Of a stretch of 25,219 nt of DNA, positions 2,203 through 17,317 are shown piece by piece; position 1 is the first letter of the stretch; every line of letters starts with the position of its first letter. The stretch spans positions 1 to 25,219 of the IMG/VR virus record IMGVR_UViG_3300021961_000584; one strand, 5' to 3'. Under the pieces are notes generated by a model. The model did no database searches. It saw only the letters and a list, made by a program, of their open reading frames with translations, and was not told the origin of the DNA. The position numbers were made by a program, and so were the translations under genes. This DNA comes from a virus.

Positions 2203-2305
2203 CAAAGGTAAGCCACTTTTTATTAATTCCAAACTTTTTCACAATTATTTTTACATTTTTCACAAACTTTTTTTAGAATCCTTTATTTTACAAGGGTTTC
2301 AAGGG
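2203..2305 (-). promoter_or_regulatory. Regulatory module copy A (early operon promoter)
   Basis: Read on the minus strand: CCTTGAAACCCTTG at 2305-2292, then two TGTGAAAAA elements at 2264-2256 and 2243-2235, a -33 box TTTG at 2233-2230, 19 nt, and a perfect Bacteroidetes -7 box TACCTTTG at 2210-2203. Copies B and C have the same order and nearly the same total length. It drives the 122-residue gene and the replication operon. TGTGAAAAA is the complement of TTTTTCACA, which fits the relaxed DnaA box TTWTNCACA. Confidence 0.7.
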
Positions 2306-2332
2306 TAAAATTTTTTTTAATTTTTTTTATTG

Positions 2333-2361
2333 TGTCGCATATTTAGCAAATATTTGCGACA
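2333..2361. repeat. Interrupted 29-bp palindrome
   Basis: Arms TGTCGCA (2333-2339) and TGCGACA (2355-2361) flank an AT-rich centre that is itself partly symmetric (ATTT, AGC, AAAT). Two T8 tracts lie just to its left. It is not followed by a U tract in either direction, so it is not a normal terminator. A protein-binding site or part of a replication origin is possible. Confidence 0.6.
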
Positions 2362-2440
2362 AAATAAGGGGCAGAATTTACCACTTAACGTATAAGAAAA
2401 GGTAAAATTTGTACATGATAAAGTACATGTGTATGTAAAA

Positions 2441-2499
2441 CAACCTTGGAAAAGGTTGAATCAACCTTGTAAAAGGTATGAATCATACCCTAATGGGTA
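2441..2499. repeat. Chain of three hairpins with palindromic junctions
   Basis: Three hairpins follow each other: CAACCTT-GGAA-AAGGTTG (2441-2458), ACCTT-GTAA-AAGGT (2464-2477) and TACCC-TAAT-GGGTA (2486-2499). The junctions are also perfect inverted repeats: AAGGTTGA-A-TCAACCTT (2452-2468) and GGTATGA-A-TCATACC (2475-2489). The right arm of each hairpin can therefore pair either backwards or with the next arm. On the plus strand the first two loops are of GNRA type. It is non-coding. Confidence 0.65.
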
Positions 2500-2500
2500 C

Positions 2501-2531
2501 AAAAAAAGCCACCCAAATTAATGGATGGCTT
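2501..2531 (-). terminator. Rho-independent terminator of cassette B
   Basis: On the minus strand the stem AAGCCATCC / GGGTGGCTT (one mismatch) is followed by seven T. It lies 19 nt downstream of the stop of the 48-residue membrane protein gene and so closes the cassette that starts at promoter copy B. Confidence 0.8.
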
Positions 2532-2549
2532 CACACAAAACACTCAAGG

Positions 2550-2696
2550 TTACTTGAGAAACAAACCTAGATAATATAAGCCGTAAAAAACGCCTAATGT
2601 TGGAATCAGTACCAACGCAATCAAACCCAAGCCATCGTAAACAAATTGTCTTTCCTCGGGTGCTAGATAAAAGTAATCTAATAAAAATTTTTTCAT
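2550..2696 (-). CDS. Small single-span membrane protein (48 aa)
   Basis: A 48-residue frame, MKKFLLDYFYLAPEER at the N-terminus, followed by one hydrophobic helix (about residues 22-47, rich in L/G/V/Y) and a terminal Lys. It is bounded by the 29-nt hairpin upstream and a clear terminator downstream, which is good evidence that it is a real gene. It occupies the last position of cassette B, the position that in cassette C holds the 168-residue protein. No family recognised; a role at the host inner membrane is likely from the helix alone. Confidence 0.65.
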   Translation of the reverse strand: MKKFLLDYFYLAPEERQFVYDGLGLIALVLIPTLGVFYGLYYLGLFLK

Positions 2697-2714
2697 GGTT
2701 TCAAAGTTTTAAAA

Positions 2715-2743
2715 ATGTGCGTGATGGATGCGCACCCCCCGTT
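2715..2743 (-). ncRNA. Conserved GC-rich intercistronic hairpin, copy 1
   Basis: A 29-nt sequence identical, in the sense orientation, to 16697-16725. Read on the minus strand it begins AACGGGGGGTGCG and ends CGCACAT; GTGCG pairs with CGCAC around a 9-nt loop CATCCATCA. It sits between the stop of the 62-residue gene and the start of the 48-residue gene. The strong GC content in an AT-rich region and the exact conservation suggest an RNA element, for example an intercistronic regulator, mRNA-processing site or protein-binding hairpin. Confidence 0.6.
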
Positions 2744-2751
2744 TTGATTAA

Positions 2752-2940
2752 TTATTTTAATAAACACAAATCTTGTTTTGCTAAATATTGTATGGCATCA
2801 ACATTAATTTCAAATGAGAAATTGCTATTTAGTACATAATTGTTTAGTGCTTCAATTACAAAATCCGTTGTTTTGCCGTCATTAAATAACTTTGTTGCAA
2901 CTTTTGTTAATTCTTGTTTTTGTTGTTCAATTGTTTTCAT
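2752..2940 (-). CDS. MKTIE-leader small protein, cassette B
   Basis: 62 residues starting MKTIEQQKQELTKVATKL. The frame extends to 2979, but that start overlaps the predicted -7 box, so the ATG at 2940 is chosen; it is also preceded by an A/C-rich leader. The first 15 nt of coding sequence are identical to those of the 39-residue gene at 16352, and both begin MKTIE and continue with a Q/K/E-rich helix. Mostly helical, unknown function. It is the first gene of cassette B. Confidence 0.72.
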   Translation of the reverse strand: MKTIEQQKQELTKVATKLFNDGKTTDFVIEALNNYVLNSNFSFEINVDAIQYLAKQDLCLLK

Positions 2941-2976
2941 GGTGTTTTCTTTTAGTGTTGTGTCATATTGACATTG

Positions 2977-3079
2977 CAAAGATTATGTTTATTTATATAA
3001 CTACCAAACATTTTGTGAATTATTTTCACATTTTTTTCACATTATTTTTCAAATGCTAGTATTTACAAGGGTTTCAAGG
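2977..3079 (-). promoter_or_regulatory. Regulatory module copy B
   Basis: On the minus strand: CCTTGAAACCCTTG (3079-3066), TGTGAAAAA (3041-3033), the 17-bp palindrome TGTGAAAATAATTCACA (3030-3014), -33 TTTG (3008-3005), 19 nt, and -7 TAATCTTTG (2985-2977). The total of 103 nt equals copy A. A 29-nt stretch covering the palindrome is identical to copy C. A second short palindrome, TGTCATATTGACA at 2961-2973, lies at the expected transcription start. Confidence 0.72.
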
Positions 3080-3106
3080 TGATAATTTTTTTCGATAAAA
3101 TACAAA

Positions 3107-3126
3107 AGGGGGTCAAAAAACCCCCT
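3107..3126 (-). terminator. Rho-independent terminator of lysis genes
   Basis: Stem AGGGGGT / ACCCCCT with a 6-nt loop, followed on the minus strand by TTTTG. It lies about 60 nt after the endolysin stop and directly before module B, so it separates the late (tail and lysis) transcript from cassette B. Confidence 0.75.
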
Positions 3127-3133
3127 ATTTGCA

Positions 3134-3177
3134 AAACTTAAAACTTAAAACCAATGAATGAATCAAAGATGATATAA
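3134..3177 (+). other. Orphan translation leader with 7-codon frame
   Basis: The 18-nt leader AAACTTAAAACTTAAAAC at 3134-3151 is identical to the one in front of the replication gene (669-686, minus). Here it points along the plus strand and is followed after 2 nt by an ATG opening only seven codons (MNESKMI, stop at 3175). It looks like the remnant of a lost or moved gene; coincidence is possible. Confidence 0.35.
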
Positions 3178-3187
3178 ATATACGCTT

Positions 3188-3652
3188 TTATTCTTTAATC
3201 TCAAAATGCATCCAATCGTAATTTTTCTCTTTGCCTAGTGAAATAAAACCATGCTTGTAAAAAATATCAATCATCTCTTTGTATTCAGCACGGGCAAACC
3301 TTGCCGTTTTTGATGTTTCTCTTAATGTGTTGCGTGCGGGGTCTAAATCAATTGCAATACCCCATGCGTGTTTTGACCATGATGAGCCACCGCGCATTTT
3401 GCGATAATTAAAACAACCCCCGTAAAGGTCAATGCCTAACTCAACAATCCTTTCATACCCGTAAACCTCCAAAAGTTCATTAAATACGCTTAAAAACGCA
3501 TTTGCAACGTCTTTGTGGCAACGCATCTTTGTAACTTTTGTTTTTGTGTCCCAAGCAATGCGCATTGGGTAAGGTAAATTGATTGTTGTTAAATATGTGC
3601 CTCTCTCATTTGGTTGCCCATATTTTGCAAGCGCTTGTTGTGTTGTTAACAT
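3188..3652 (-). CDS. M15 family peptidase, endolysin
   Basis: 154 residues. The zinc-binding pattern of M15 (VanY / D-Ala-D-Ala carboxypeptidase-like) peptidases is complete: S93-x-H95-x-x-G98-x-A-x-D102 in [10 protein letters not shown], and the second motif with H149 in DWMHFE. The length fits single-domain phage L-Ala-D-Glu or D-Ala endopeptidases. It should cut peptidoglycan stem peptides or cross-links at the end of infection. No signal peptide is visible, so it needs a holin; the two small membrane-protein genes immediately upstream are the natural candidates. The gene ends the late transcript, closed by the terminator at 3107-3126. Confidence 0.86.
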
Positions 3653-3735
3653 AACTTGTTATTAAAGGTTCAAATGTCAAGTTTTTTGTGCTATAAACGG
3701 GACATTTTAATTGTTTTTCTCCTCAATTAAGTATT

Positions 3736-3903
3736 TTACCTTTTATTCAGTTTTTTAAATCCTAGGTACATAATACCCAAAATCATTACAAGTGTGATGC
3801 CAAGGTTAAATTGATTTGATGTATCAACATCTTGTTGTAATGTGCGCGTTGTGTCAATTAAATAATTGATTGTTGCGGTGTCTAGTTGCGTTGTATCATT
3901 CAT
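3736..3903 (-). CDS. Small membrane protein, lysis region (55 aa)
   Basis: A 55-residue frame: a polar, Thr/Asp/Gln-rich N-terminal half (MNDTTQLDTATINYLIDTTR), one hydrophobic helix (about residues 34-49), and a basic tail ending KKLNKR. The positive-inside rule predicts the N-terminus outside. Its ATG overlaps the stop of the upstream gene as ATGA, which is strong support for a real gene. Its place next to the endolysin suggests a holin, antiholin or spanin-like accessory. Confidence 0.65.
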   Translation of the reverse strand: MNDTTQLDTATINYLIDTTRTLQQDVDTSNQFNLGITLVMILGIMYLGFKKLNKR

Positions 3904-4133
3904 ATTTCTAAAATTTGATTATTACATATTATCTTTTTCTTGTTGGGTAATATTGCCAAAAGCATGCCATCATTTGCTTTATATGAGCCATTCAATACGC
4001 TCGCCGTTTGGCTTTTGTAGCAATCCCACAATTGTTGTTCAACTTTTGATAATCGGTTGTCGGTGTACCACAACCACGCAACCAAAACACCCGTAACCCC
4101 ATACTTTTTAATGCTAACAATCAACGCCTCCAT
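3900..4133 (-). CDS. Putative holin-like small protein
   Basis: 77 residues. A short hydrophobic segment near the N-terminus (about 11-22, GVTGVLVAWLWY) is followed by a polar helix (NRLSKVEQQLWDCYK). This one-span plus charged-helix layout recalls small phage holins of the BhlA/UviB type, although the C-terminal part (about 40-77) is not typical. It is coupled by a 4-nt overlap to the 55-residue membrane protein and followed by the M15 endolysin. Holin is my best guess; a tail-associated role cannot be excluded. Confidence 0.5.
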   Translation of the reverse strand: MEALIVSIKKYGVTGVLVAWLWYTDNRLSKVEQQLWDCYKSQTASVLNGSYKANDGMLLAILPNKKKIICNNQILEI

Positions 4134-4135
4134 GA

Positions 4136-4483
4136 TTAACTTTTTTTGCTGATTAACAAATTATAAAAATCAACAATCGCATCATTGCTTGCCGTGTCAA
4201 TAATATAACCATCAACAACAAGCGTGTTTGAATCAAAAGTAAAATAATACTTATTGTTGCCGTTAACTACAATAAAGAAACCATCAATTGATGCACCGCT
4301 AATTGATACAAAATTAAAATCAACATCGCTTGTTTTGTACACATCTTTTAATGGTGTGATTGTCATGCGCTCGCTTGTTGGCGATACAAAAAATTCATCC
4401 AATGAAAATGTTGTGCATTTGTTTATGAAAGCAATGTTTAATTGCCTATTTACAAATTCATATGTAACCCCATTAATTGTCAT
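4136..4483 (-). CDS. Hypothetical protein
   Basis: 115 residues, beta-rich, with YYFTFDSNTLVVDGYIID in the second half. Not recognised. It overlaps the upstream gene by 4 nt (ATGA) and lies 2 nt before the putative holin gene, so it is part of the late transcript between tail-tip and lysis genes. A small virion or fibre-associated protein is plausible from position only. Confidence 0.65.
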   Translation of the reverse strand: MTINGVTYEFVNRQLNIAFINKCTTFSLDEFFVSPTSERMTITPLKDVYKTSDVDFNFVSISGASIDGFFIVVNGNNKYYFTFDSNTLVVDGYIIDTASNDAIVDFYNLLISKKS

Positions 4484-4812
4484 GATAACGTCTTGTAAAT
4501 TGTTTGTTTTGTATAAATCGAATTAAAAAGTATTGTAAGCGCTGAATCATTTAATTCATAATCTGCACCATCAACATCATGTATTGTTGTGTTTTCAACT
4601 TTCATTGATAACCTAAAAATGCCACCAACAATTATGTTTAATTGGTCAAGTGTAATATTGTTATCAATTGTTGTGTAAATGCAATCAAATGTGATTGAAT
4701 CAACATCAAATAAATCAATGTGTGTTTGAGCCATTGAATCGCTATTTTCACCCGTAAATTCACGAATTACAACAACCTTATTAATTAAATCGAATGTGTA
4801 TTTTTTAGCCAT
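4480..4812 (-). CDS. Hypothetical protein
   Basis: 110 residues, beta-rich and acidic, starting MAKKYTFDLINKVVVIREF. Similar in size, composition and position to its downstream neighbour and translationally coupled to it, so the two may act together; I see no convincing sequence similarity between them. Unknown function in the late region. Confidence 0.65.
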   Translation of the reverse strand: MAKKYTFDLINKVVVIREFTGENSDSMAQTHIDLFDVDSITFDCIYTTIDNNITLDQLNIIVGGIFRLSMKVENTTIHDVDGADYELNDSALTILFNSIYTKQTIYKTLS

Positions 4813-4814
4813 TT

Positions 4815-5690
4815 TTAATAATATGTGCGTGTGTTTTTGAATTTATCCGCAACCTTACATGTTAACTTTGCTTTGCGTGAAAAATCGTAATATTCAAGTT
4901 CGGGTGATTCGCTCACAATTACGGGCAAATCTTGGTAACGATATGAATGATTATGTGCGTTGTAATCGCTAACAAATAAATTGTTTTCGCTCAACAAAAT
5001 CAAATCAACAATTGGCTTAATCACACACTCATTTAACGGGTCGGTTATGATTTCGTAACTATTGAGATTTTCACGAATTACGCGCTTCATTTCTCGGTTG
5101 CCAAAAATGATATTATCAATCTCCATGTTTGGTTGGCGGTTACCTATGTAGCCATAAAATCGCCAATCCGTTGTAATGTTTGAGGCGCTAAAATTTATGC
5201 CCTCAATCTCATGGTAACCATCAAACACTGCTCTTAATCTAGCGGTGCCAAGCGCGTTTTGAGTGTTGTATTGTTTCAACGTGTAATTTGCCCATGTAAA
5301 TGAACCGCTAACACCGCTAATTGAATACTCAATTTCTAGTGAAAAACAACCCACACCATCGCTCACAATTACGGCGCCCCAATCAATTGTTGTAAACCAT
5401 GCATTTGGCTCGTTAACAAATGCGTTTGGTAATGGCTGATAATTTGCCAATGCGCCACTTTTATACAATTTGAATGTGAATGTATCACCCGCATCGCTTA
5501 ATTTCAACCACGCGCTTGTTTTGTCGCTTTCCCATGAATTATTGGATGATGAACCCAACACCAACAACTCACAACAACAATCTTTGACACCTCGGTTTTC
5601 CTCAACAAATGGTTGTGGCAATTTTATTGCGTTATATTCTTTGAATATACGCTCTTCCGTTAATCCATTTTCGCAACCGATAATTGGCAT
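4815..5690 (-). CDS. Late tail-region protein, unknown
   Basis: 291 residues. It has a Cys cluster near residues 38-40 (KDCCCELL), a beta-rich middle with many aromatic residues (FTWANYTLKQYNTQNALG), and a Cys near the C-terminus (LTCKVADKF). No family recognised. The composition (beta strands, Asn/Ser/Tyr) and the position after the fibre-like genes suggest a virion surface or tail-tip protein. The gene is separated from the 40-residue gene upstream by 3 nt. Confidence 0.62.
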   Translation of the reverse strand: MPIIGCENGLTEERIFKEYNAIKLPQPFVEENRGVKDCCCELLVLGSSSNNSWESDKTSAWLKLSDAGDTFTFKLYKSGALANYQPLPNAFVNEPNAWFTTIDWGAVIVSDGVGCFSLEIEYSISGVSGSFTWANYTLKQYNTQNALGTARLRAVFDGYHEIEGINFSASNITTDWRFYGYIGNRQPNMEIDNIIFGNREMKRVIRENLNSYEIITDPLNECVIKPIVDLILLSENNLFVSDYNAHNHSYRYQDLPVIVSESPELEYYDFSRKAKLTCKVADKFKNTRTYY

Positions 5691-5693
5691 TGT

Positions 5694-5816
5694 TTATTTT
5701 TTTATTTCAATTATTGCTTGCAATATTGTTGCAACATCTTGTAAATTATAAACCCCTTTTTGAGTTGCCGCATTTAACGCTTGTTCAATTATTTGTATTG
5801 CTTGTGCTTTTTCCAT
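5694..5816 (-). CDS. Very small helical protein (40 aa)
   Basis: A 40-residue frame, MEKAQAIQIIEQALNAATQK at the N-terminus, then GVYNLQDVATILQAIIEIKK. It is two amphipathic helices with a short turn. It starts at the stop codon of the previous gene (TAATG, 1-nt overlap) and ends 3 nt before the next, which supports translation. Many Bacteroidetes phages carry such short helical proteins between fibre genes. Function unknown. Confidence 0.6.
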   Translation of the reverse strand: MEKAQAIQIIEQALNAATQKGVYNLQDVATILQAIIEIKK

Positions 5817-6109
5817 TATGCAAGGTCTATTGTTACACCAAATCCCAATTCTTCAAGTTTTGATTTTACTACCTCATGAATAGTTGCAAGGTCTTGGTTT
5901 TGTGTTGCATCTAAAACCAATGGCATATTTTCGGGAATGTTAGTTGCTATTGTTTTATAAGCCAAAACATCTGCCTTATTCAATCCCGTTAATAATACAC
6001 ATTGAACTTTATTGCCATCGGCAACCGCAATATATTGCAATCGAGCATAAATTTGTGGTGCTGAAATTTCGGTATTTTTGATTTTAGCGTTGTCTATAAG
6101 TAAAGCCAT
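5816..6109 (-). CDS. Hypothetical small tail-region protein
   Basis: 97 residues starting MALLIDNAKIKNTEISAPQI. Mixed alpha/beta composition, ending LEELGFGVTIDLA. Not recognised. It follows the 400-residue fibre-like protein by 21 nt and is coupled to the 40-residue gene. A small fibre-attachment or assembly role is a guess from context. Confidence 0.62.
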   Translation of the reverse strand: MALLIDNAKIKNTEISAPQIYARLQYIAVADGNKVQCVLLTGLNKADVLAYKTIATNIPENMPLVLDATQNQDLATIHEVVKSKLEELGFGVTIDLA

Positions 6110-6130
6110 TTTTTTATTTTTTATTTATTA

Positions 6131-7333
6131 TTAATATGTGTATAAAGGTATCATATATTCTCCCCAATCATCTGCAATAATTTTCAACCATTTATTTGCT
6201 TGTACTAAACCATTTGTTGGGTAATCTAAAAACATATATGGATTTTCAACTATTAAATTTGATGCATTTATAACGACACTTGAAGAACCAGCATACAAAT
6301 TTACATTTCCACCAGCAATAGCGATATTTGAGCCACTCATTGCATCACGCATTTGAAATAATTGCATTGGTTTATCTCTAATAAATTCGGGGAAATTGGG
6401 ATTATCACCCGTATTTAAACCGAATAAACCTTGACCACCATCAACCCAAAGCCCACTTGATGAGAAATTGTTAAACGCTTCTTTGTTACCAATTCCGTAA
6501 TTTTCAATTACCAAATCGGTAAATATCGAACTTTGACCGCCTCCCGATTGAATATCAACTTTCATCGTATTCGTTGTGCGTATTTCAAACAATCCAAAAT
6601 AATCGTTTTGCTGAATTACGCTATCAGCAAAAACACCTCCATTGTTGTATGGCAAAAAGCCACTTGTCGGGTTAGTTCCACCACCTAAATTGCTTTTTAA
6701 TGTGTCTAAAGTTAGCCTTTTCCAAATCTCTTGTGTTTCATCTAAAAACAAAAATGAATCCTCATCTTGTGGCGTGGTGTAATTATCACTTGTTACGTTG
6801 TGCAATTCCTCTAATTCATAGCCGTTTTGTATGTTGTAAACAATGCGCCCATTACCATTTTGAGAGCGTGTAACAATACCAATAAAAACCGCGTGTAAAG
6901 GTGTTTGTGGCTCACTTGTTGTTACTTGCCCGTCAACATTAGAAAGCCAAAGTTTATCGCCAACATTAAATGCGCTTGTATCTAGGTTGTCAACTTCACC
7001 CACTTGCACAATTAAACCAACCGCCCCGTTTGCAACATCATCGTAAACCGCACCAATTGTTTTGCTTGATGTTAATTCAGTTGTTGCGTTTGCCAAATCC
7101 GCGTGTGGGTAATTAGCGCTTGAGGATGATGAGCGTAAATATACAATTGTTCCTTTAGGAATTGTAAAACCCAAATCATTCTCAAATTGAAAAGAAAGGT
7201 AATTTTTACCAATCGCGCCACCTTTAATTTTAGCGGTGCGGTATTGGGTACCATCCCAATAATCAATGTCTAAAAAATCATCAGCGCCCAACTCGGTGCG
7301 CTCAATTGGGTATTGGTTTATTTGTAATCCCAT
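6131..7333 (-). CDS. Tail fibre / receptor-binding-like protein
   Basis: 400 residues. The N-terminus MGLQINQYPIERTELGADDF and the following segment (DIDYWDGTQYRTAKIKGGAI) read like the virion-attachment part of Bacteroidetes phage fibres. A beta-rich domain with GDKLWLSNVDGQVTTSEP occupies about residues 60-170. A region ending KSNLGGGTNPTSG marks the junction to a repetitive, beta-helix-like C-terminal half rich in N/G/S (about 225-380), ending in an aromatic tail (GEYMIPLYTY). I infer a trimeric fibre or receptor-binding protein. No chaperone gene is obvious next to it, although the 97- and 40-residue genes directly downstream could serve. Confidence 0.55.
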   Translation of the reverse strand: MGLQINQYPIERTELGADDFLDIDYWDGTQYRTAKIKGGAIGKNYLSFQFENDLGFTIPKGTIVYLRSSSSSANYPHADLANATTELTSSKTIGAVYDDVANGAVGLIVQVGEVDNLDTSAFNVGDKLWLSNVDGQVTTSEPQTPLHAVFIGIVTRSQNGNGRIVYNIQNGYELEELHNVTSDNYTTPQDEDSFLFLDETQEIWKRLTLDTLKSNLGGGTNPTSGFLPYNNGGVFADSVIQQNDYFGLFEIRTTNTMKVDIQSGGGQSSIFTDLVIENYGIGNKEAFNNFSSSGLWVDGGQGLFGLNTGDNPNFPEFIRDKPMQLFQMRDAMSGSNIAIAGGNVNLYAGSSSVVINASNLIVENPYMFLDYPTNGLVQANKWLKIIADDWGEYMIPLYTY

Positions 7334-7335
7334 TT

Positions 7336-9573
7336 TTAACTTGTTACTTTGTTAATATTTTCGGTTGTTATTTTATCCTCAAAAGTGGTTGTTGATTTTT
7401 GAATTGGCAACAAATCACAATTTTGCTTAATCTTTGATGTAAATTTAGCCATATTTTGAATGTTAATTTTATTTGTGTCAAAATAACATTCGATTTTGGC
7501 AATTGTAGGCGTTGGAAATGATAATGTTGCAACGCTCCCAACAATCGGTGTAAGTGGGTTGTTTTGGTTGTTATCAAAATCAATTATTGTTGAGCAAATC
7601 CAACGCGGTGCGCTCTCTTTTGGCTCAATTGTAATCATGCCCCATGTGGCGCCTTGCTCCCAATCCCCCGCCAATGATTCATGGGTTGAAACAACTTTCA
7701 TCATTTCGCCTTGAATGATTGAGTTTACAACTTGACCCGTTGAAACCCTTACCAACTCAATTTGACTCACAATATTATCATTATGGTTATATGGCAATAA
7801 TTCCATTTCGCTAAATGACACAAATGACAACCCGTTTTGTATTGATTCAATTTTAACCCTAACCGACCAATCACCGATGTTTTCGTAATTTAACCAATCC
7901 TTGTTTTGATTTGGGTAAAAATCACCATTTGCATTTGCTTGTTGCAACCAATATTCCCAACGAATCAAAAAAGGAAAATGCAAACGCATGCCGTATTGCG
8001 AACCCGTATCAATTCCCGAATCACGCCAAAAACGCGCGGTGCGTTTAACACTTGTTGTTGGCAATATTGAATTTACTTGTGCATTAACATCAATTGGCAT
8101 TACGCCGTTTTGCATTGGTATTTGCGTTAAATCAAATGTTACATTTTGCAAATCAAATGATTCACCCGTTACATAATTATGCGCTTCAACAATGGCATTA
8201 AATTGGCTCATTGTGGTGCCATTATCAACCAAGAATGAACAAAAATATGCAACATCATCCTCAATATTACATGTGTACCTTTCAACATTACCAATGTATG
8301 TATCATTGTTATATGAATGGTCATCAAATGCGCTTGTTTCTAGGGTTAAATAACCACCAACGGGTACGTTTTCAACTAGCATTGCATTATGCAAAAGCAA
8401 ATTCATGTTGCCAACTTTCAACCATGCATAAAATAAGCGGTCTTGCTCGGGTAAATTCTGCATGAATTGCGTATATAACGCATCGGGCGTGAATTTTATT
8501 TGTGCATCGTATATGTTACCACCAACGTTTGTAAATGATAAAACCTCCAATGACATTGTACCACCATTTGGTAACGCCTCACCAACCATTACACCAATGG
8601 GTTGTTGTGATGTTAAAATGCCCGTTAACGTTGATTGATTCGGGAAAACGTTTTTGTAATATGAATCATTTTGTGGTATGTATGCAAAGCCAACCGCACG
8701 CTCATTTGAGCCACTTTCAAATGTGATTGTTGCAATTGTTGGTTGGTCAAAATATATTTCATCAATTCCTTGAATCAATGTTGCATCAACAACATCTTGG
8801 TTGTATGGCTCATCAAACCATCCCGAATCAGCGTTTTCACTTATTACCAATGTTTGGTTGGCAAACGGCTCACCAAGTAATGATTGCCAAGCGGTTTCAA
8901 TATACACTTTTAAACATTGGTTTGTTGAAAACCATTGCTCGTTATAAATACCACTATTAACAACCTCAACATCCAAAAAATATGTGCGGTAAATACCCGA
9001 TGCGCCACCAAATGTTAATGTGGCGTTATAAGCAAATTGACCGCTTTGTTTATTTACAAAACTAGGCAAATAAGGTGATGGTGTTGTTAGGTCAAAAACA
9101 CATTGTGTTGCCTCACCATCAATTAATGAAAGCGCATTGCCTTGGGTGCCATTAGCAACATGATTGATTGACATTCTCATGCCTTGGCGTGTTCTGCCAT
9201 CAACCGCAATCACCATTATTTCACCCGCCGTAAAATCGTACCATGTGGGTATTGAATTGACATCAATTTGGTTGCCGTTAACAGACACACATAATGTTGT
9301 CCATGATGTTATTAAGCCACCGCCCGAGTTGTGTTTTTCAAATAATATTGTATCACCAACCCGAAACCCCTCATCCTCAAAAGAGCCACCAACCCATGTA
9401 ACAATGTTATTTATTGGGTCAAGTGATAAAGTAACCAATGGTGATGTTTGAACACTAATTGATTCCTTTAGCGTTAAACGCAAATATTGCTTATCACCCG
9501 CGTTGCTTTTGTAAAAATTGCGGATGTTGCCAAAAATATCAGTGTACTCTCTATTTTGTAAGATTATTGGCAT
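7336..9573 (-). CDS. Large baseplate / tail-tip protein
   Basis: 745 residues, beta-rich throughout, with Ig-like or jelly-roll-looking segments (for example LRLTLKESISVQTSP near residue 35 and AYNATLTFGGASGIYRTYF near 180) and many Trp/Tyr residues. No enzymatic motif seen. It lies between the hub-like protein and the fibre-like protein, where siphoviruses keep baseplate upper proteins. The gene starts 23 nt inside the preceding 72-residue gene and is followed after 2 nt by the fibre gene. Structural role likely; exact part unknown. Confidence 0.55.
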   Translation of the reverse strand: MPIILQNREYTDIFGNIRNFYKSNAGDKQYLRLTLKESISVQTSPLVTLSLDPINNIVTWVGGSFEDEGFRVGDTILFEKHNSGGGLITSWTTLCVSVNGNQIDVNSIPTWYDFTAGEIMVIAVDGRTRQGMRMSINHVANGTQGNALSLIDGEATQCVFDLTTPSPYLPSFVNKQSGQFAYNATLTFGGASGIYRTYFLDVEVVNSGIYNEQWFSTNQCLKVYIETAWQSLLGEPFANQTLVISENADSGWFDEPYNQDVVDATLIQGIDEIYFDQPTIATITFESGSNERAVGFAYIPQNDSYYKNVFPNQSTLTGILTSQQPIGVMVGEALPNGGTMSLEVLSFTNVGGNIYDAQIKFTPDALYTQFMQNLPEQDRLFYAWLKVGNMNLLLHNAMLVENVPVGGYLTLETSAFDDHSYNNDTYIGNVERYTCNIEDDVAYFCSFLVDNGTTMSQFNAIVEAHNYVTGESFDLQNVTFDLTQIPMQNGVMPIDVNAQVNSILPTTSVKRTARFWRDSGIDTGSQYGMRLHFPFLIRWEYWLQQANANGDFYPNQNKDWLNYENIGDWSVRVKIESIQNGLSFVSFSEMELLPYNHNDNIVSQIELVRVSTGQVVNSIIQGEMMKVVSTHESLAGDWEQGATWGMITIEPKESAPRWICSTIIDFDNNQNNPLTPIVGSVATLSFPTPTIAKIECYFDTNKINIQNMAKFTSKIKQNCDLLPIQKSTTTFEDKITTENINKVTS

Positions 9574-9769
9574 ATTTTTCCATTAAATCGTTTATCTTTT
9601 GCGGGTCGTTATTTTTCAATGCGTTCATTGTATCATTTACATCACGCATGATTTCATCCGCTTTTTGTGGCTCATCTTTTGCCAAAATGTTGAGAATCTC
9701 ATTGTTTTTTTGCAATAACAATTCAAGATTTTTTGTTGTTTGCTCAACTATTTTTAACAACTCATCCAT
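9551..9769 (-). CDS. Small coiled-coil protein
   Basis: 72 residues, almost entirely charged and helical: MDELLKIVEQTTKNLELLLQ at the start, then heptad-like L/I spacing, two DPQK motifs (DEPQKADEIM, NDPQKINDLM). Likely a coiled coil. It overlaps the hub-like gene by 1 nt and the 745-residue gene by 23 nt. It may be an assembly factor or a small tail-tip component; not recognised. Confidence 0.65.
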   Translation of the reverse strand: MDELLKIVEQTTKNLELLLQKNNEILNILAKDEPQKADEIMRDVNDTMNALKNNDPQKINDLMEKYANNLTK

Positions 9770-11505
9770 TAGTTTATTTTTAAAATTTCAACCTTTGTAT
9801 TTGCCCAATTTGAGCGCTCGCGGTAAGTGATTTGTGCAAATGATTTTTCATCAATCCATTCAATTTTTAGAATCTCGCAAATCACCCCGTTGATATACGC
9901 CCAATTAATATCTTGTAAAGTTACGAAATCTTGATGTGTTAGCATCACTCTCGCGTTTTCTTTAATGATGTAATCATTTTTGTTTATCGCGTTAATGTAA
10001 TGGAATTTATCCCATAATGCCGTTGCGCTTGCCTCATCAATGTATGTTGATGCTTGCACATATGAACCAACTTTGAATTGATTTAATTTGGCGTAAAGCG
10101 CTTTAGATACACCATAAAATTCTTGGCTTATCTGCATGGCATTTTTACGCTCACCTATTTGCACGGCAAAAGACGTACCGCCACCAAAAACACCCGTTAC
10201 CGAATCAATCAATGTAAAAAATCCCTTTCCTAGCGATTCAACCCAATTTAATTTGTCTTTGCGTTTGGCTAGGGCAAAAGGTATATTGACCTCATTTAAA
10301 CCCTTTAGCAACACCAAATCATTATTTGTAATGGCAAATGATGGCTCGGTTGAATATTCGGCATCATGCGCATCGTAAACCTCCGCATCTAGCGTGTGCA
10401 AATCTGCAAAATCGGTTTGATAGTGCAAATAATATCTTTTCCATGATTCGCTAGTTAGGTATGAATATTCATCATCTCGGTTGCCTTGCAATGTTAATGA
10501 TGGAATTAATGAATTTGTTGCAATGGTTTGTAAATAATCACGCCTTTCAACGCGCACAACATTGCCAATTATAAACGTTTTGGCATTAAACATTGTTTCA
10601 AGAGCGCTTACAAATGCACCAAGTGTTGGTGTTGTATCACTCGCGCTTGGGTAACCATTGTTAAAAGATGTACCCGCAAATGTTTGCGTTACCGCATCAA
10701 AAATTGTTTCACGCCCTTTAATTAATGGCACGGGGCATAAAACCCAATTATCATCAATTGTGTTTGATTCGTATTGATAACCCAAATACTCGCATGATTT
10801 GCGCATTAATTCGTTAAATGATATTCCCTTTAAATTTCTCAACGGAGGAAAAACCAATTGAATCATTTGATTTGCCAATTTGATTACCGCAATCAACACC
10901 GCTGATGTATAAATTAATTGTGCGGTTGCCTTTAAACTTGCTTGTATTATGGCACCCGTGTTTGGTATTGGTATTGGTATTAAAATTGGAATTGATGCGT
11001 TTATAACATCCGCAATTGCGGTTGATAAATCTTTGACCGCTTGTATTAATTCCTTGGTCATTACATAACCCGCAATGGCTAATTGCAACGCAACCTCGGC
11101 TTGGTTATCTTTTACAATGAAATATGGTACATTGTATGTGTCATAATTAACACCTTTTGATACCATGTTTTCAAATGACAAACCATTGATGCGCTCAAAA
11201 AATGAATCAACATTTTTGCGCCTCTTTAATTTTACCTCGATTTCGTGTTGCCTAACCTTAACATCCTCTAGCAAATCAATGTAATATTCCAATGTGATGC
11301 CATCAACCTCAACTTGGTACGGCAAACCCTCAAATAAACCAACATTTGCAATGTGTTGCTTTACGATTTCAAAACCATCAAGTGGTAAAATAACGCTATC
11401 AACATTCAGCGCCAACACATCGGGGTTACCGCTAAAATCACTCACAACACCGATTGATTCGCGGTTGCGCGGTGTTATCTCTTGCCCGTTTATAAAATGC
11501 CTCAT
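9769..11505 (-). CDS. Tail hub / Tal-like protein
   Basis: 578 residues, directly downstream of the tape measure gene, where siphoviruses encode distal tail and tail-associated proteins. The N-terminal part (about 1-110) is beta-rich, with DFSGNPDVLALNVDSVILP and LKRRKNVDSFFERIN. Residues about 166-220 are unusually hydrophobic, including PILIPIPIP (173-181) and a second helix (LIYTSAVLIAVIKLANQMI), which could be buried in the virion or inserted into the host membrane. Later segments (YLGYQYESNT, LHTLDAEVYDAHDAEY) are not diagnostic. The start overlaps the tape measure stop by 4 nt. The role is inferred from position. Confidence 0.58.
   Translation of the reverse strand: MRHFINGQEITPRNRESIGVVSDFSGNPDVLALNVDSVILPLDGFEIVKQHIANVGLFEGLPYQVEVDGITLEYYIDLLEDVKVRQHEIEVKLKRRKNVDSFFERINGLSFENMVSKGVNYDTYNVPYFIVKDNQAEVALQLAIAGYVMTKELIQAVKDLSTAIADVINASIPILIPIPIPNTGAIIQASLKATAQLIYTSAVLIAVIKLANQMIQLVFPPLRNLKGISFNELMRKSCEYLGYQYESNTIDDNWVLCPVPLIKGRETIFDAVTQTFAGTSFNNGYPSASDTTPTLGAFVSALETMFNAKTFIIGNVVRVERRDYLQTIATNSLIPSLTLQGNRDDEYSYLTSESWKRYYLHYQTDFADLHTLDAEVYDAHDAEYSTEPSFAITNNDLVLLKGLNEVNIPFALAKRKDKLNWVESLGKGFFTLIDSVTGVFGGGTSFAVQIGERKNAMQISQEFYGVSKALYAKLNQFKVGSYVQASTYIDEASATALWDKFHYINAINKNDYIIKENARVMLTHQDFVTLQDINWAYINGVICEILKIEWIDEKSFAQITYRERSNWANTKVEILKIN
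10964..10981. repeat. GGTATT triplet repeat in hub gene
   Basis: Three tandem GGTATT hexamers encode the alternating Ile-Pro run of the hydrophobic segment. Like the repeat at 308-337, unit changes keep the reading frame. Confidence 0.7.
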
Positions 11506-14500
11506 TTTCTTACTTTGTAGCGGTTGTATGTTGTTGTTTTTCCGCTTGTTTTGCTCTCAACAATTTCAACAACACTTTGTGTGATTTGACCAAGTGCAAT
11601 GTTTGTTTCGGGTTTGTCTTTAATTACACTCTTTAAATCTTTAATTTCATTAACTAGTACTGCCAATTCAAGTGCGCTTTGCGGTTGCCCGTTTGATTCA
11701 ACAAATTTGCCGTTGTTATATTCTTGGGCAACGCGTGCCAAATCCGTGTTTGATAGGTTACCAATTTTCTCATTTAATGATTTAGGTACAACCCTTTCAT
11801 TTGGGTGTAAAATAGCATGAAAACCGCCTTTACCATCAACACCATTGCCATTTTTCCCCGTGTCTTCGGTACCATCAAAGAACGTTGGTAATGATGCAAT
11901 AAATTGTTGCAATAATGTGGTGTCGCGTATGGTTTCGGCAAGTGGATTTTTTGAGCCACCCTCAACTTTATTTGAATAAGTTGAATAAACCGATTCCGCT
12001 AATTTGATGCGTTGTTGGCGTTTTGCCTCGCGCTCTTTTTTGCGGTTTGCTTCATCAATAATTCTTTGTTGCTCTGCCAATGATTGTTGCGCATCAATGT
12101 TTCCTTGGGCGCTCAATTCTCGGTAATAATCCAATTGTTGTTGCGCTTTGTTCATCTCGGCATCAATTTGCTCAACTCTTTTTTCACTTTGCTTAACCAA
12201 CCAATCCGTTGTTTGTTTAATGATTTCACGTTTGGCGCTTTCACGCTCTTTTAAATCATCCAACTCTTGTTTGTTTGCATCTTTTGAATCATCTAATGAT
12301 TCCTTTGTAAATCCTTTTTGCGCATCTAGCAATTCTTTTTCAAGGTCAATTTTAAACTCAACCGCATCACTTTCCAATGCATTGATTTCATCGGTTGCTC
12401 TCTCTGCAATAATTTTCTTTTTTAGTTCAATGTCTTTTTTGCGCTCAATTTCTTGCATGTCTAATTCTGCAAGTTGCGTTTGGAAATTTTTATTGATTTC
12501 TAATTTTGCATTATTTGCATTTTTGGCACCCTCGGTTTCTTTTAAAAGTTTATCGCGCTCATCAATTAGGTCTTGTAAGCGCGTTTGTTGATTGTAGTTG
12601 TATTCATCTTCAATTGCTTTCAATTCTGCATCTCTGCGTTGCTCAATTGCGCCTTTTTCGATGTTTAATTTTTCGGTTGCTAATTCCTCAACCTTTGCCA
12701 ATGAAAATTGCCCCGTTTCTTCGACTAATTTTTTTTGTGCCTCAACCTCTTTTTCAATCTCTTTTTCTAGCGCTAATTTTTGGCGCTCTTGCTCAATTAC
12801 AACCAATTCTTGCATCAAATCATTGTATTGGCTCACATAATCATTTAATTCTTTAAACTCGCTCTTTGCCTCGCGTGTAACCTTGGTTGTTTTCTCGGTT
12901 TCTTTGTTCATTGCGTTAACCTCGCTTGTTGCATCCAATACAACCTCACTTGCAACATCAAACTCATTGTTGTATGCGGTTAAACTTGTATTTGATGCGC
13001 TTATTGAACCATTTACCGAACGTATGGCATCCTCAACCGAGCCGTATTTTTCAACAACTTGCTTGTATCTTTTCCTTTCATCATTTGACATGTTCATCAA
13101 ACCACCCTTAAATGCGGTTTGCAATGATTGCAAATCGGTTAATTGTTGTTTGTAACCCTCTTTGCGTTGTTGAACAACTTTAATGTCATTTTGTATTTGT
13201 GCTTTTGTTGCTTTGTTTATCGCCTCTTTTTGTTTTAAAAATTCTTTTTCGGTTATTTTACCCTCATTTCGTTGGCGTTGCAATTCGTTAATTTGTTTCT
13301 CTGCATCTTTTGTGCGGTCGGTGTTGCGTTTATCCGCACGTTTTTGCGCCTTGGCGTTGTATGCCTCGGTGATTGCTTGTTGCTCGCGTGCCTCTTTTGC
13401 ACCGCTTGCAATGTCGTAAAATGCTTGGGCAACCTCAACCAATACGCCAATTATTAACATCCATGGTACCGCATTCATTGCACGCCCCGATTGTTTAACC
13501 GCCTCACCCGATGCTTTAGCCGAGCGAGCCAAATTGATTTGCTCCATGCGATACGCACGGGTCATTGGTATGGATTTAAGCATTGATTGCATGATGTTTT
13601 TTAAACCACCATTCATTACAAATTGCGTTGCATTTAATGCAACCATTGTTGCCTTGTAAAGCGCCCAATATTTAACAACCTTTGCTAGAATATTAAATAT
13701 TGTTTCAAGGTTTTCACTCAACCAAACAACCGCATTTGAAAAACTAGCACCCGCACCGCTCGCGCTATTTACTTTCAAGATATAACCCTCCCATGCGCTC
13801 GTCAACAAATCTAACGCACCGCCAAGGGTATTTAGTTGGGTGTCTGCCATTGCTTTGGCGCTACCCTCCGCCTCATTTAGCGTTTGGCTCAATCCGCTAA
13901 CTTTATCTTGATTTTTAGATAATACCAATAATGCGGTTTGCGCCGAGCGCCCCACCTCATCCATTGCATCGGTTAGCGTTAACCCTTTTGATGATATTTC
14001 TGCTAATGCCTCTTTTACGGGTTTGCCCGTTGATGCCATTTCGGAAAAAATACGGCGTAAAGCGGTACCCGCTGATGACCCTTTAATCCCATTATCAGCC
14101 AACGCACCAAGCATTGCGGTTGTTTCCTCTAAAGTTACACCCGCCGCTTTTGATACGGGCGCAACATATTTCATTGATTCCGCAAAACTTTCCATATCCA
14201 ACGCCGATGTTGAAAATGATTTTGCCATTACATCATTAACGCGTTGCATTTCGCTAGCATTTAAGCCAAACGCACGCAATGTTGACCCCGCAACCTCTGC
14301 GCTTCGTGCTAAATCGGTACCCGTTGCCCCCGCTAATGATAACGTTGATTCGGTTGCGTTTAATATTTCCGTTTCGTTAAAACCTAGTTTTGCAAATTCC
14401 GTTTGCAATTGCGCAACTTGACCCGCGGTAAATCTAGTTGTTGCACCAAGACGTTTTGCATCATCACTTAATGCAACAATTTTATCTTGAGTTGTGCCAA

Positions 14501-15284
14501 GTACGGATGCTAAATTTGCAACACCTTGGTCAAATTCTTTAATGGCGCCAAATGCCGAGCGAACAATTGTAGATAAACCAAATGCAATGCCAAGTTTACC
14601 AAGCATGTTTTGCAAGCCACCCAACGCATTTTGATAATTACCAACGTTTCGGAAATTATCACCAACACTTTTATCAAGTTTTTTTAATTGCGCATCACCT
14701 TGTTGCGCCGAGCGCGTAACCGCTTTATATTGGCTTTCTAGTTTGCGATATTCCGCGGTGTTTTTACGCCCGCTATTTTCTAGCGCTAGCATTTCGGCGC
14801 CTAGGCGCTTTGATTCGTTTTTAAGGTCGCGTGTTGCTTTTTCTAGTTTTTTATATGCGTTTGCCTCGTTTTGAGTGAGTTTAGCGCTTTTTTCCTTTTG
14901 CGCGTTTAATCTTTCCTCTTCTTTTGCTTGTTGTTGCGCCGTGCGCATTTGTTGTTGCGCCGTTTTTTCTTTTTGTTGTGCTAGGCGCTCAAGTTCTTGT
15001 TGCGCTTTTAATGATTGTTGCGTTGCTTGGTCTTTGAGTTTTTCAATCTTAATTGCTTGCTCAACCGCTTTACTAGCATCTTGAGTTGCTTTTGTAAACT
15101 CATTTATGTTTTTGGTTGAATCGAATTTAGCACCGCCAAGCGTTGATTTAATAGTTGTTGAGAGTTGTTTAAACTCTTGGTCAATCTTATTTAATTGCTC
15201 AATTGTTTTTTGTGCGCTCAATCGGATGCCCTCAAATATGTCATCCTTTTCAAATATGTCTTGGCTATTTATCCGCTTTGCCAT
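11502..15284 (-). CDS. Tape measure protein
   Basis: 1260 residues. The N-terminal 210 residues are a long coiled coil rich in Q/K/E/A. About residues 225-430 form the TP901-type tape measure core (GVANLASVLGTTQDKI, LGATTRFTAGQVAQLQTEFA, GIKGSSAGTALRRIF). A hydrophobic helix follows near 600-630 (VPWMLIIGVLVEVAQAFYDI), then about 450 residues of coiled coil. The C-terminal part contains GGFHAILHPNERVVP, a Pro/Glu motif common in tape measure proteins of Bacteroidetes phages. It sets tail length and is ejected with the DNA. By the usual 0.15 nm per residue, the tail would be about 190 nm. It overlaps its upstream neighbour by 20 nt and its downstream one by 4 nt. Confidence 0.92.
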   Translation of the reverse strand: MAKRINSQDIFEKDDIFEGIRLSAQKTIEQLNKIDQEFKQLSTTIKSTLGGAKFDSTKNINEFTKATQDASKAVEQAIKIEKLKDQATQQSLKAQQELERLAQQKEKTAQQQMRTAQQQAKEEERLNAQKEKSAKLTQNEANAYKKLEKATRDLKNESKRLGAEMLALENSGRKNTAEYRKLESQYKAVTRSAQQGDAQLKKLDKSVGDNFRNVGNYQNALGGLQNMLGKLGIAFGLSTIVRSAFGAIKEFDQGVANLASVLGTTQDKIVALSDDAKRLGATTRFTAGQVAQLQTEFAKLGFNETEILNATESTLSLAGATGTDLARSAEVAGSTLRAFGLNASEMQRVNDVMAKSFSTSALDMESFAESMKYVAPVSKAAGVTLEETTAMLGALADNGIKGSSAGTALRRIFSEMASTGKPVKEALAEISSKGLTLTDAMDEVGRSAQTALLVLSKNQDKVSGLSQTLNEAEGSAKAMADTQLNTLGGALDLLTSAWEGYILKVNSASGAGASFSNAVVWLSENLETIFNILAKVVKYWALYKATMVALNATQFVMNGGLKNIMQSMLKSIPMTRAYRMEQINLARSAKASGEAVKQSGRAMNAVPWMLIIGVLVEVAQAFYDIASGAKEAREQQAITEAYNAKAQKRADKRNTDRTKDAEKQINELQRQRNEGKITEKEFLKQKEAINKATKAQIQNDIKVVQQRKEGYKQQLTDLQSLQTAFKGGLMNMSNDERKRYKQVVEKYGSVEDAIRSVNGSISASNTSLTAYNNEFDVASEVVLDATSEVNAMNKETEKTTKVTREAKSEFKELNDYVSQYNDLMQELVVIEQERQKLALEKEIEKEVEAQKKLVEETGQFSLAKVEELATEKLNIEKGAIEQRRDAELKAIEDEYNYNQQTRLQDLIDERDKLLKETEGAKNANNAKLEINKNFQTQLAELDMQEIERKKDIELKKKIIAERATDEINALESDAVEFKIDLEKELLDAQKGFTKESLDDSKDANKQELDDLKERESAKREIIKQTTDWLVKQSEKRVEQIDAEMNKAQQQLDYYRELSAQGNIDAQQSLAEQQRIIDEANRKKEREAKRQQRIKLAESVYSTYSNKVEGGSKNPLAETIRDTTLLQQFIASLPTFFDGTEDTGKNGNGVDGKGGFHAILHPNERVVPKSLNEKIGNLSNTDLARVAQEYNNGKFVESNGQPQSALELAVLVNEIKDLKSVIKDKPETNIALGQITQSVVEIVESKTSGKTTTYNRYKVRK

Positions 15285-15849
15285 GTTCCATTTTGTTTAT
15301 TCGTTCAACCTCTTTTAATAGTGTAAAGTATTCACGCGTTGTTATGTCTTTTGGTCGCAACCAATACCCCACAAATTTGCTCAAATGCACCAATGATTCC
15401 TCAATTGATACGCCCGTGCCGTTGTTATCTAGCAACATTTTCAAGTTTTGTTGCTCAATTTCTAACAAAGTTAGTGAGAATTTATCACGTTTTTGGATGT
15501 AATCCAACTCAATGTTGGCTTTCTTTTTCATTGTTTCAAGCAAACGTTTGTATTGTTTGCCTAATCCATAATCATTAATGTATGAATCATATATTTTGCA
15601 CCATGTAAGCGCATCGGATTGCTCATCACCTTGGCTTTTGTCAACTCTGCAAAATGTCAAATCACCATTTGTGCATTTAATCCAATTAAACAACGGCAAC
15701 TCATCAATTGAATCATAATATGTTGCGCAATTCTCGTTGGTAACCCTCTTTGATTTTTTGGCGTAAAATATCCATGTTTTCGCTAGTGAGCGCAATAATG
15801 TTTTCACCATATTTGTAAAATAAGTTTTCGGTTTCACCCGTTCTTGCAT
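15265..15849 (-). CDS. Putative tail assembly chaperone, start unclear
   Basis: The open frame from 15849 gives 194 residues. The part after about residue 48 (YYDSIDELPLFNWIKC, then GDLTFCRV and IYDSYINDYGLGKQY) looks like a protein found next to tape measure genes in Bacteroidetes prophages. The first 45 residues lie within the 153-residue gene in another frame and look non-native. No ATG, GTG or TTG is present near the natural N-terminus, so translation may begin at an internal ATG at 15810, at an unusual codon, or by frameshifting from the upstream gene at the A6 run 15754-15759. The position just before the tape measure gene is that of the G/GT chaperones of siphoviruses. Confidence 0.6.
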   Translation of the reverse strand: MQERVKPKTYFTNMVKTLLRSLAKTWIFYAKKSKRVTNENCATYYDSIDELPLFNWIKCTNGDLTFCRVDKSQGDEQSDALTWCKIYDSYINDYGLGKQYKRLLETMKKKANIELDYIQKRDKFSLTLLEIEQQNLKMLLDNNGTGVSIEESLVHLSKFVGYWLRPKDITTREYFTLLKEVERINKMEHGKADK

Positions 15850-16174
15850 CGGTTTTTATTGGGTCGGCATCAATTTCAAGCATTTTTTTACCAACATAAA
15901 CAACCATTGAGCGGTAAAAATCACCACTATCAAAAAGGGTGTAATGTGTACCCGCTCGCTTTTGCGGGTTTAGCATCTCGGTAAATGCTGAATAATAACC
16001 CAAAACATCACCATCACCATCAATACCTTGTTTAAATAATTGGTCTTGCCTTATTGTGTCTAATATCCACAATCTAAATTGCGTATCATTACACACTTTG
16101 TACCACAAATAATTATCATTCATGGTTGCAAATTGCTTCAATTTCGTACCTAAAATTGTATCCATTAAACCCAT
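15713..16174 (-). CDS. Tail completion or chaperone-G-like protein
   Basis: 153 residues. It shows the pattern DQLFKQGIDGDGDVLGYYS (about 43-61) followed by TLFDSGDFYRSMVVYV (about 78-93) and YGENIIALTSENMDIL. I recall this QGxDxxGxxLGxYS / GDFYxS arrangement from Bacteroidetes phage proteins resembling gp10-type tail completion proteins. It overlaps the next gene by 137 nt in the +1 frame, which is unusual in this compact genome and could reflect programmed frameshifting. The upstream neighbour is the inverted cassette C, so it needs its own promoter or readthrough. Role uncertain. Confidence 0.6.
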   Translation of the reverse strand: MGLMDTILGTKLKQFATMNDNYLWYKVCNDTQFRLWILDTIRQDQLFKQGIDGDGDVLGYYSAFTEMLNPQKRAGTHYTLFDSGDFYRSMVVYVGKKMLEIDADPIKTDARTGETENLFYKYGENIIALTSENMDILRQKIKEGYQRELRNIL

Positions 16175-16188
16175 TTGCCTTTTTTATG

Positions 16189-16220
16189 TAAAATTAATCA
16201 TTTTTTTTTCATGCCTCAAA
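16189..16220 (-). promoter_or_regulatory. Possible tail-operon promoter
   Basis: On the minus strand TTTG (16220-16217), 20 nt, then TAATTTTA (16196-16189), ending 14 nt before the ATG. The -7 box has one mismatch to TAnnTTTG. The sequence TGATTAATTTTACA around it also occurs before the portal gene (about 23287-23300). A promoter here is needed if the terminator at 17271-17300 stops the head transcript. Confidence 0.35.
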
Positions 16221-16315
16221 CCCTTGAAAATAAAGGGATTTGTGAAAAAGATTGAAAAAAATGTGAAAATAATTCACAAAACGTTTTGCAGTTATCAAAA
16301 TAAATATAATCTTTG
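16214..16315 (+). promoter_or_regulatory. Regulatory module copy C (plus-strand cassette)
   Basis: CCTCAAACCCTTG (16214-16226), a small CCCTT/AAGGG inverted repeat (16221-16237), TGTGAAAAA (16241-16249), the palindrome TGTGAAAATAATTCACA (16262-16278), -33 TTTG (16285-16288), 18 nt and -7 TAATCTTTG (16307-16315). The 40 nt from just after the palindrome to the -7 box match copy B at 34 positions. It drives the three plus-strand genes. Confidence 0.72.
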
Positions 16316-16351
16316 TAGGGCAATAACGCACAAAACAAAACACAAAACACA

Positions 16352-16471
16352 ATGAAAACAATTGAAAATCAAATCAAAGAATTACAAAATGCTTGGAAAA
16401 AAGGCACCACGGGAATGAGCGTAAATGAGTACACCTCAACATTGCACCAACTTTACAAAAAACTTAAATAA
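16352..16471 (+). CDS. MKTIE-leader small protein, cassette C (39 aa)
   Basis: 39 residues: MKTIENQIKELQNAWKKGTT at the start and LHQLYKKLK at the end, probably one or two basic helices. The first 15 nt are identical to the 62-residue gene of cassette B, and both continue into QxxxxEL. It lies 36 nt after the -7 box of module C, after a leader of repeated ACAAAACAC units. The related starts and promoters indicate a shared origin of the two cassettes. Function unknown. Confidence 0.68.
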   Translation: MKTIENQIKELQNAWKKGTTGMSVNEYTSTLHQLYKKLK

Positions 16472-16488
16472 ACTTAATACAAAACACA

Positions 16489-16692
16489 ATGACAACAACA
16501 ACTTACATTTACAAAACGGCTAAAGGAATCAATGTTGAAACGTTTACATCAACGGGGTATGTAACATTAACTCAAAACGGGGTGTTTAAATATGAGCATC
16601 ACTTTGGTATCCATGCATTAAATTTACAAGAACAAATGTTACTTAAAGAATTAATTGAGCGCAATATTGAATACACAAAATCAATCAACTAA
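16489..16692 (+). CDS. Small hypothetical protein, cassette C
   Basis: 67 residues: a beta-rich first half (MTTTTYIYKTAKGINVETFT, then GYVTLTQNGVFKYEHHFG) and a helical, charged end (EQMLLKELIERNIEYTKSIN). Not recognised. It starts 17 nt after the previous gene behind the same ACAAAACACA leader. It has no counterpart in cassette B, so it is the element that differs between the two cassettes. Confidence 0.7.
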   Translation: MTTTTYIYKTAKGINVETFTSTGYVTLTQNGVFKYEHHFGIHALNLQEQMLLKELIERNIEYTKSIN

Positions 16693-16696
16693 AAAC

Positions 16697-16725
16697 AACG
16701 GGGGGTGCGCATCCATCACGCACAT
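16697..16725 (+). ncRNA. Conserved GC-rich intercistronic hairpin, copy 2
   Basis: Identical over 29 nt to the complement of 2715-2743, thus in the same sense relative to its cassette. It begins 4 nt after the stop of the 67-residue gene and ends 18 nt before the ATG of the last gene. Stem GTGCG/CGCAC, loop of 9 nt, with six G directly before the stem. An in-frame GTG inside it could extend the next gene, but the ATG at 16744 behind the A-rich leader is far more likely. Confidence 0.62.
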
Positions 16726-16743
16726 AACAAAACACAAAACACA

Positions 16744-17300: not shown

Positions 17301-17317
17301 TTGCATTTTAAACGCTA

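Follow-up and report, generated by a model that had tools for sequence, protein, structure and literature searches.

A promoter module of about 103 base pairs occurs three times in the uncultured virus contig IMGVR_UViG_3300021961_000584 of IMG/VR, all 25,219 bases of which constitute the window analysed here. Our comparisons suggest that it serves a broad group of Bacteroidota phages as an early promoter for host RNA polymerase, that a dimeric activator probably acts at its distal site, and that this phage has re-used it for two accessory cassettes, B and C; we put the probability of this reading at about 0.72. The three copies lie where a preliminary description of the sequence had placed them (A, 2203-2305, minus strand; B, 2977-3079, minus; C, 16214-16315, plus), and its proposal that the module heads the replication operon, through A, and one accessory cassette each through B and C is supported. 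The window is placed among Bacteroidota phages because of its promoter type and because the DUF6291 protein of the replication operon (23-667) has relatives in Flavobacterium, Cellulophaga and Olleya phages. From upstream to downstream, the module would consist of a GAAACCC-N11-GGG-N-TTT site, TGTNAAAA A-tract repeats one helical turn apart, a -33/-7 promoter and a leader, nAAnGTCAATAAnGCACA. Of these, the site, with its set helical distance, and the leader vary least.

Homology of the three copies

BLAST within the record aligns copy B with copy C at 83% over 98 nucleotides (nt; E 1e-24) and with copy A at 76% over 88 nt (E 6e-14), and it finds no fourth copy in the 25 kb. All three copies can be aligned over about 98 nt plus the leader. 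The best ungapped 80-mers agree at 61 (A-B), 59 (A-C) and 67 (B-C) of 80 positions, whereas dinucleotide shuffles (500 per pair) average about 37 and never exceed 47, which rules out base composition or AT-richness as the source of the similarity. Its 29-nt identity between B and C is also seen, as TGAAAAAAATGTGAAAATAATTCACAAAA, and the conserved spacing that it reported is exact: AAACCCTTG-N36-GTNAAAATAATT fits A, B and C with zero mismatches, and strict spacing recurs in other phages. Similarity between B and C extends into the first codons and ends soon after the start codon. The two units have a second element in common, 39 nt long and 90% identical (2715-2753, minus; 16687-16725, plus).

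Core promoter and leader

Primary-sigma promoters of Bacteroidota have the form -33 TTTG / -7 TAnnTTTG (F. johnsoniae, PMC6847099; F. psychrophilum, PMC9723704), and in F. johnsoniae the -7 G lies at -5, with transcription starting 5 nt past it (PMC6847099). The claim that all three copies carry a promoter of this type stands in full for copy A, which has TTTG-N19-TAnnTTTG, and in part for B and C, which have AATCTTTG at -7. The box is exact in A and in most relatives and has one mismatch in B and C, and the -33 TTTG lies 19-20 nt from it in all three copies, inside the 17-22 nt range of Bacteroidota sigma-A promoters. Chance alone would yield 0.6 occurrences of the bare TTTG-N19-TAnnTTTG pattern, so that the promoter call depends on comparative evidence.

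The leader, a feature that the preliminary description had overlooked, is the strongest signature of the module. It is short, runs into an A-rich start region and, as TTTGNAAKGTCAATAWGGCA, is found in at least 120 IMG/VR viral contigs; in 19 of the 20 larger contigs it is single-copy. One early promoter of this type per phage is the rule, and the three copies in the window are exceptional. TTTGNAAKGTCAATAWGGCA had no exact match in 395 Bacteroidota genomes and one match with one mismatch, against three in the control; cultured phages (INPHARED) gave no match beyond chance. The iterated profile of the module matches promoters in the Flavobacterium phages tooticki and lillamy (E about 1e-8), which are without the AAACCCTTG site.

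The distal site and its spacing

The distal element is a quasi-palindrome, GAAACCC-N11-GGG-N-TTT, of which the CCTTGAAACCCTTG part is one arm. Profile iteration yielded 42 different modules. Counted back from the end of the -7 box, the centre of the site falls at 74-76 or at 85-87 nt, and the site may face either way. These distances are one helical turn apart; if the -7 G is taken to lie at -5, its position in F. johnsoniae (PMC6847099), they place the centres at about -80 and -91. An independent test of this rule used promoters picked by the leader TTTGNAAKGTCAATAWGGCA alone (30 non-redundant) and a matrix trained on other loci. Twelve of the 30 exceeded the 99% null for a distal site, and 11 of these 12 fell inside the two predefined windows (P 3.6e-14); the twelfth (L167, at 108 nt) resembles an upstream terminator hairpin.

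Two positions one turn apart, together with free orientation, match the requirements of a dimeric protein in contact with RNA polymerase. A palindromic, orientation-free site common to several promoters of one phage would also suit an operator at which a phage repressor silences the early genes late in infection or in lysogeny. That reading is unlikely: the site lies 75-87 nt upstream of the -7 box, at a distance from the footprint of polymerase, and a single site per promoter, placed in whole-turn steps, is more in keeping with polymerase contact than with a steric block. Among those early proteins of the window that were tested, none was recognised as a repressor.

Relatives and phage specificity

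The search for further copies called for in the preliminary description found homologous modules in related phages. A scan of viral contigs with AAACCCTTG-N28..44-GTNAAAATAATT gave eight matches, four of them at exactly 36 nt (L033, L035, L038 and L039); these four belong to one phage family and carry the promoter and a leader, TTTGCAATGTCAAACAA, before small open reading frames (ORFs). In the capsid-based relatives whose contigs reach the early region (L073, L074 and L075), AAACCCTTG stands forward or inverted in the promoter past the last late gene, and L074 and L075 have two such modules each. The DnaA-C protein of the window had no match in a single-protein search; a DnaA-C alignment search recovered 80 early regions. 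The A/B/C profile matches L090 (E 6.8e-8) and L093, in both of which the module heads an operon with a DnaA-C protein. A DUF6291-type protein follows that protein in L090, and DUF6291 is also found in the operon of L075. In L090, L093 and L075 alike, the homologous module lies between the last late gene and the DnaA-C operon.

A bacterial host element was considered and rejected: the joint pattern had 25 matches in bacterial genome contigs, with no excess at the 36-nt spacing. GAAACCCTTGTAAA had 13 matches in 148 bacterial genomes against 9 in the control, and a longer distal-site pattern showed no overall excess over control in 118 bacterial genomes. A few intergenic palindromes of distal-site form, such as AAAACCCTTATAAATACTGGGGTTTT, occur in bacterial genomes (L320, L327, L330 and L334) without a promoter at the phage spacing, and they are not above control.

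Repeats and DnaA-like boxes

The preliminary description had singled out the TGTGAA-N5-TTCACA palindrome as an operator, and this part of it is not supported. The palindrome, TGTGAAAATAATTCACA, is confined to the paralogous copies B and C; copy A carries TGTAAAAATAATTGTGA in its place, and A, L090 and L093 have TTGTGA/TTGTTA there. As judged by comparison across phages, the distal CCTTGAAACCCTTG element, not this palindrome, is the one with phylogenetic support.

Between the distal site and the core, TGTNAAAA repeats are three-fold enriched on the coding strand of the leader-selected promoters (15 observed, 5 expected), and no match was found on their opposite strand. They lie about 40, 52 and 61 nt from the -7 end, about 11 nt apart, and may be phased A-tracts or directional sites. 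An alternative explanation takes the TGTGAAAAA repeats as DnaA boxes for the phage DnaA-domain-IV protein (703-1110) or for host DnaA, with the module as an autoregulated promoter or an origin copied to three places. The protein does match Bac_DnaA_C of Pfam (E 1.1e-11), L191 has TGTGGATAA, the reverse complement of TTATCCACA, and TTTTTCACA fits the relaxed box TTWTNCACA, of whose nine matches in the window four lie inside modules. DnaA-like boxes are also enriched in leader-selected promoters (10 against 1.7 expected), but the same form fits A-tracts, which explain the excess as well, and window-wide the nine matches compare with 8.8 expected. Many modules (L073, L132-L137 and the L033 family) are without clear boxes, a DnaA-C gene is present both where the distal site occurs (32 of 44 phages) and where it is missing (12 of 29), and a three-copy origin would be unusual. 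We consider this explanation slightly less probable still than a repressor operator.

Accessory cassettes

The three genes of cassette C lie inside the tail region on the plus strand. In all 12 relatives in which the gap from the tail-tube gene to the next gene could be read, the cassette is absent and the gap measures 128-300 nt, against 1143 nt in the window. Cassette C is thus an insertion, a point that the preliminary description had overlooked. Phage morons are small accessory genes with their own promoter and terminator, inserted between structural genes. Because cassette C is absent from relatives at the same place and has its own promoter (copy C) and terminator (17271-17302), it qualifies as a moron cassette. 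Its second gene (16489-16692, plus) encodes a 67-residue protein with homologues, 68-89% identical, in other phage contigs, where they are usually the first gene past the early promoter. In a capsid relative (L031:2673-2812, minus), the same module drives two small antisense ORFs that lie between the terminase and portal genes and end in a terminator; this two-gene cassette is unrelated to cassette C and is an independent cassette of the same design.

Cassette B is flanked by direct module copies, B and A, and small ORFs in L074 and L075 likewise lie between modules. These arrangements suggest that genes may be gained and lost by recombination between modules. They also fit an account in which the similarity reflects recent duplication or recombination of early-region DNA only, perhaps with the distal palindrome as a recombinase site, and no shared regulation. 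The CAAACCCTTG repeat beside both ends of cassette C and the few bacterial intergenic palindromes of similar form without a promoter at phage spacing can be cited in its favour. We regard this account as improbable, the least favoured of those considered: B/C similarity ends soon past the start codon, the regulatory parts are alike and helically spaced across distant phages, and a recombination site has no need of helical spacing. The second repeat, at 17348, falls within coding sequence; across 330 kb of relatives the 9-mer has about ten coding matches, a chance rate of nearly one per window.

The CAAACCCTTG repeat itself is direct (16217-16226 and 17347-17356, the latter in the tail-tube gene) and could be chance or a trace of recombination. 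In some relatives (L022:5480-5850, and the same gap in L004 and L007) the tail-tube gap, in which cassette C sits in the window, contains a terminator, along with promoter-like sequence directed into the tail genes.

Intercistronic RNA element

Both cassettes carry an intercistronic GGGGTGCG-N9-CGCAC element. In the form CGAG-GG-GTGCG-N-CTCG-N4-CGCAC it is found in 28 other distinct phage sequences (for example L209:3655 and L073:10380), and in early operons it lies about 10 nt past a stop codon and 15-23 nt ahead of the next ATG. By its sequence it can fold into an H-type pseudoknot, in which the outer helix has the compensatory pairs CG/UA and GC/AU, with a covariation score equalled in 5 of 500 shuffles, and the inner stem is invariant. 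The element has no Rfam match; a scan of the whole window with Rfam returned one sub-threshold match to a clustered regularly interspaced short palindromic repeat and otherwise nothing.

Gene layout

The contig has no terminal repeats. Its late genes are on the minus strand: terminase (24686-23298), portal, protease, capsid (21262-20057), tail, tape measure and an M15 endolysin (3652-3188); gene names that were not profile-tested were assigned by position and by homologues in relatives. Two small units follow the endolysin, and then the replication operon at the left end of the contig. Some relatives (L031:4154-6152; comparable gaps in L024 and L029) have extra genes between portal and protease that the window lacks. 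In L031 this region encodes a 476-residue protein with, by eye, the look of LamG-type repeats.

Table 1. Coordinates of the module parts, cassettes and neighbouring elements in the window.
Feature	Position	Strand	Remarks
Operon read from copy A	23-2150	minus	ORFs 2150-1782, 1755-1426, 1289-1107, DnaA domain-IV 1110-703, DUF6291 667-23
Copy A promoter	2203-2233	minus	-33 TTTG, N19, -7 TACCTTTG; start predicted near 2198 (start spacing from PMC6847099)
Copy A repeat array TGTGAAAAA/TGTAAAAA	2234-2266	minus	
Copy A distal site GAAACCCTTGTAAAATAAAGGATTC	2276-2300	minus	centre 85 nt from -7 box end (about -89.5)
Cassette B	2501-2940	minus	ORF 2940-2752, pseudoknot-like element 2741-2711, small membrane-protein-like ORF from 2696, terminator 2530-2501
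Intercistronic element, cassette B	2711-2741	minus	
Copy B promoter	2977-3011	minus	-33 TTTG, -7 AATCTTTG; start predicted near 2972
Copy B half-site array TTGAAA/TGTGAA/TGTGAA/TTCACA	3011-3053	minus	exact 11-nt steps; includes TGTGAAAATAATTCACA palindrome
Copy B distal site GAAACCCTTGTAAATACTAGCATTTG	3050-3075	minus	centre 86 nt from -7 box end (about -90.5)
Terminator-like hairpin of late operon	3104-3126	minus	directly upstream of copy B
Copy C distal site CAAACCCTTGAAAATAAAGGGATTTG	16217-16242	plus	centre 86 nt from -7 box end
Copy C half-site array	16239-16281	plus	nearly as in B; includes TGTGAAAATAATTCACA palindrome at 16262-16278
Copy C promoter	16282-16315	plus	-33 TTTTG, -7 AATCTTTG; start predicted near 16320
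Cassette C ORFs	16352-17250	plus	16352-16471, 16489-16692, about 16744-17250; antisense to tail genes
Intercistronic element, cassette C	16699-16729	plus	
Terminator-like hairpin closing cassette C	17271-17302	plus	symmetric enough for both strands

Discussion

We propose that a dimeric protein, of phage or host origin, would bind the distal site, centred at about -80 or -91, and, sharing a helical face with RNA polymerase, contact it, while the A-tracts may act as UP-like or bent DNA. By analogy with CRP of E. coli, this protein would most likely be a class-I-type activator rather than a repressor. Duplication of the promoter in this phage would then cause cassette B, whose neighbour downstream is the replication operon, and cassette C to be switched on together with replication, presumably early in infection. 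That one regulator controls all three copies, as the preliminary description held, is a reasonable expectation.

Several observations weigh against this reading. The case is built from sequence comparison, and the loci share ancestry, so that the counts are not fully independent. Copies B and C depart from the -7 consensus at the first base of the box, and the distal palindrome is imperfect, worst in copy B. A recognisable distal site is missing from 29 of 75 leader-selected promoters (about 40%), and the site is therefore not essential to all leader promoters. No regulator gene co-occurs cleanly with the site, in a comparison confounded by ancestry and partial contigs.

Class I activator-dependent promoters of the E. 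coli CRP type place a symmetric site ahead of the core promoter, in either orientation and at positions that differ by one helical turn. The phage module is like them in its symmetric site at whole-turn distances (74-76 and 85-87 nt) in both orientations, and differs in that the sequence of the site is unrelated and its activator is proposed by analogy. With Bacteroidota primary-sigma promoters (PMC6847099, PMC9723704) it shares the core boxes and their spacing, AT-rich upstream DNA and an A-rich leader before the ATG, but it has in addition a conserved distal quasi-palindrome, at either of two helical positions, and a phage-specific leader that host genomes lack. Cassette C resembles moron cassettes in comprising small accessory genes with their own promoter and terminator between structural genes. 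Unlike them, it carries a copy of the phage's own early promoter, antisense, and should follow early control rather than be independent. The genome of halovirus HF2 is likewise reported to have promoter-bearing intergenic repeats (PMC8707807), in an archaeal system and with sequences unrelated to the phage module.

More tentatively, and with somewhat less than even confidence, we suggest that many uncultured Bacteroidota phages may share an early-control system in which a dedicated, possibly phage-coded dimeric activator at whole helical turns, a leader RNA and an intercistronic pseudoknot mark early mRNAs, and which cassettes join by carrying copies of these tags. We found no description of the module, or of such a system, in the open-access literature searched, where early gene control in Bacteroidota phages appears to be little described. 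The fixed helical spacing offers a simple and sharp experimental test, and the module is a direct starting point in the search for the factor that activates these phages, as well as a candidate strong promoter for Bacteroidota genetics. The 67-residue protein of cassette C merits study as a candidate early host-takeover or anti-defence factor. Moreover, with a phage-specific signature of promoter plus leader that occurs in at least 120 contigs, the early operons and accessory cassettes of uncultured genomes can be found from sequence alone.

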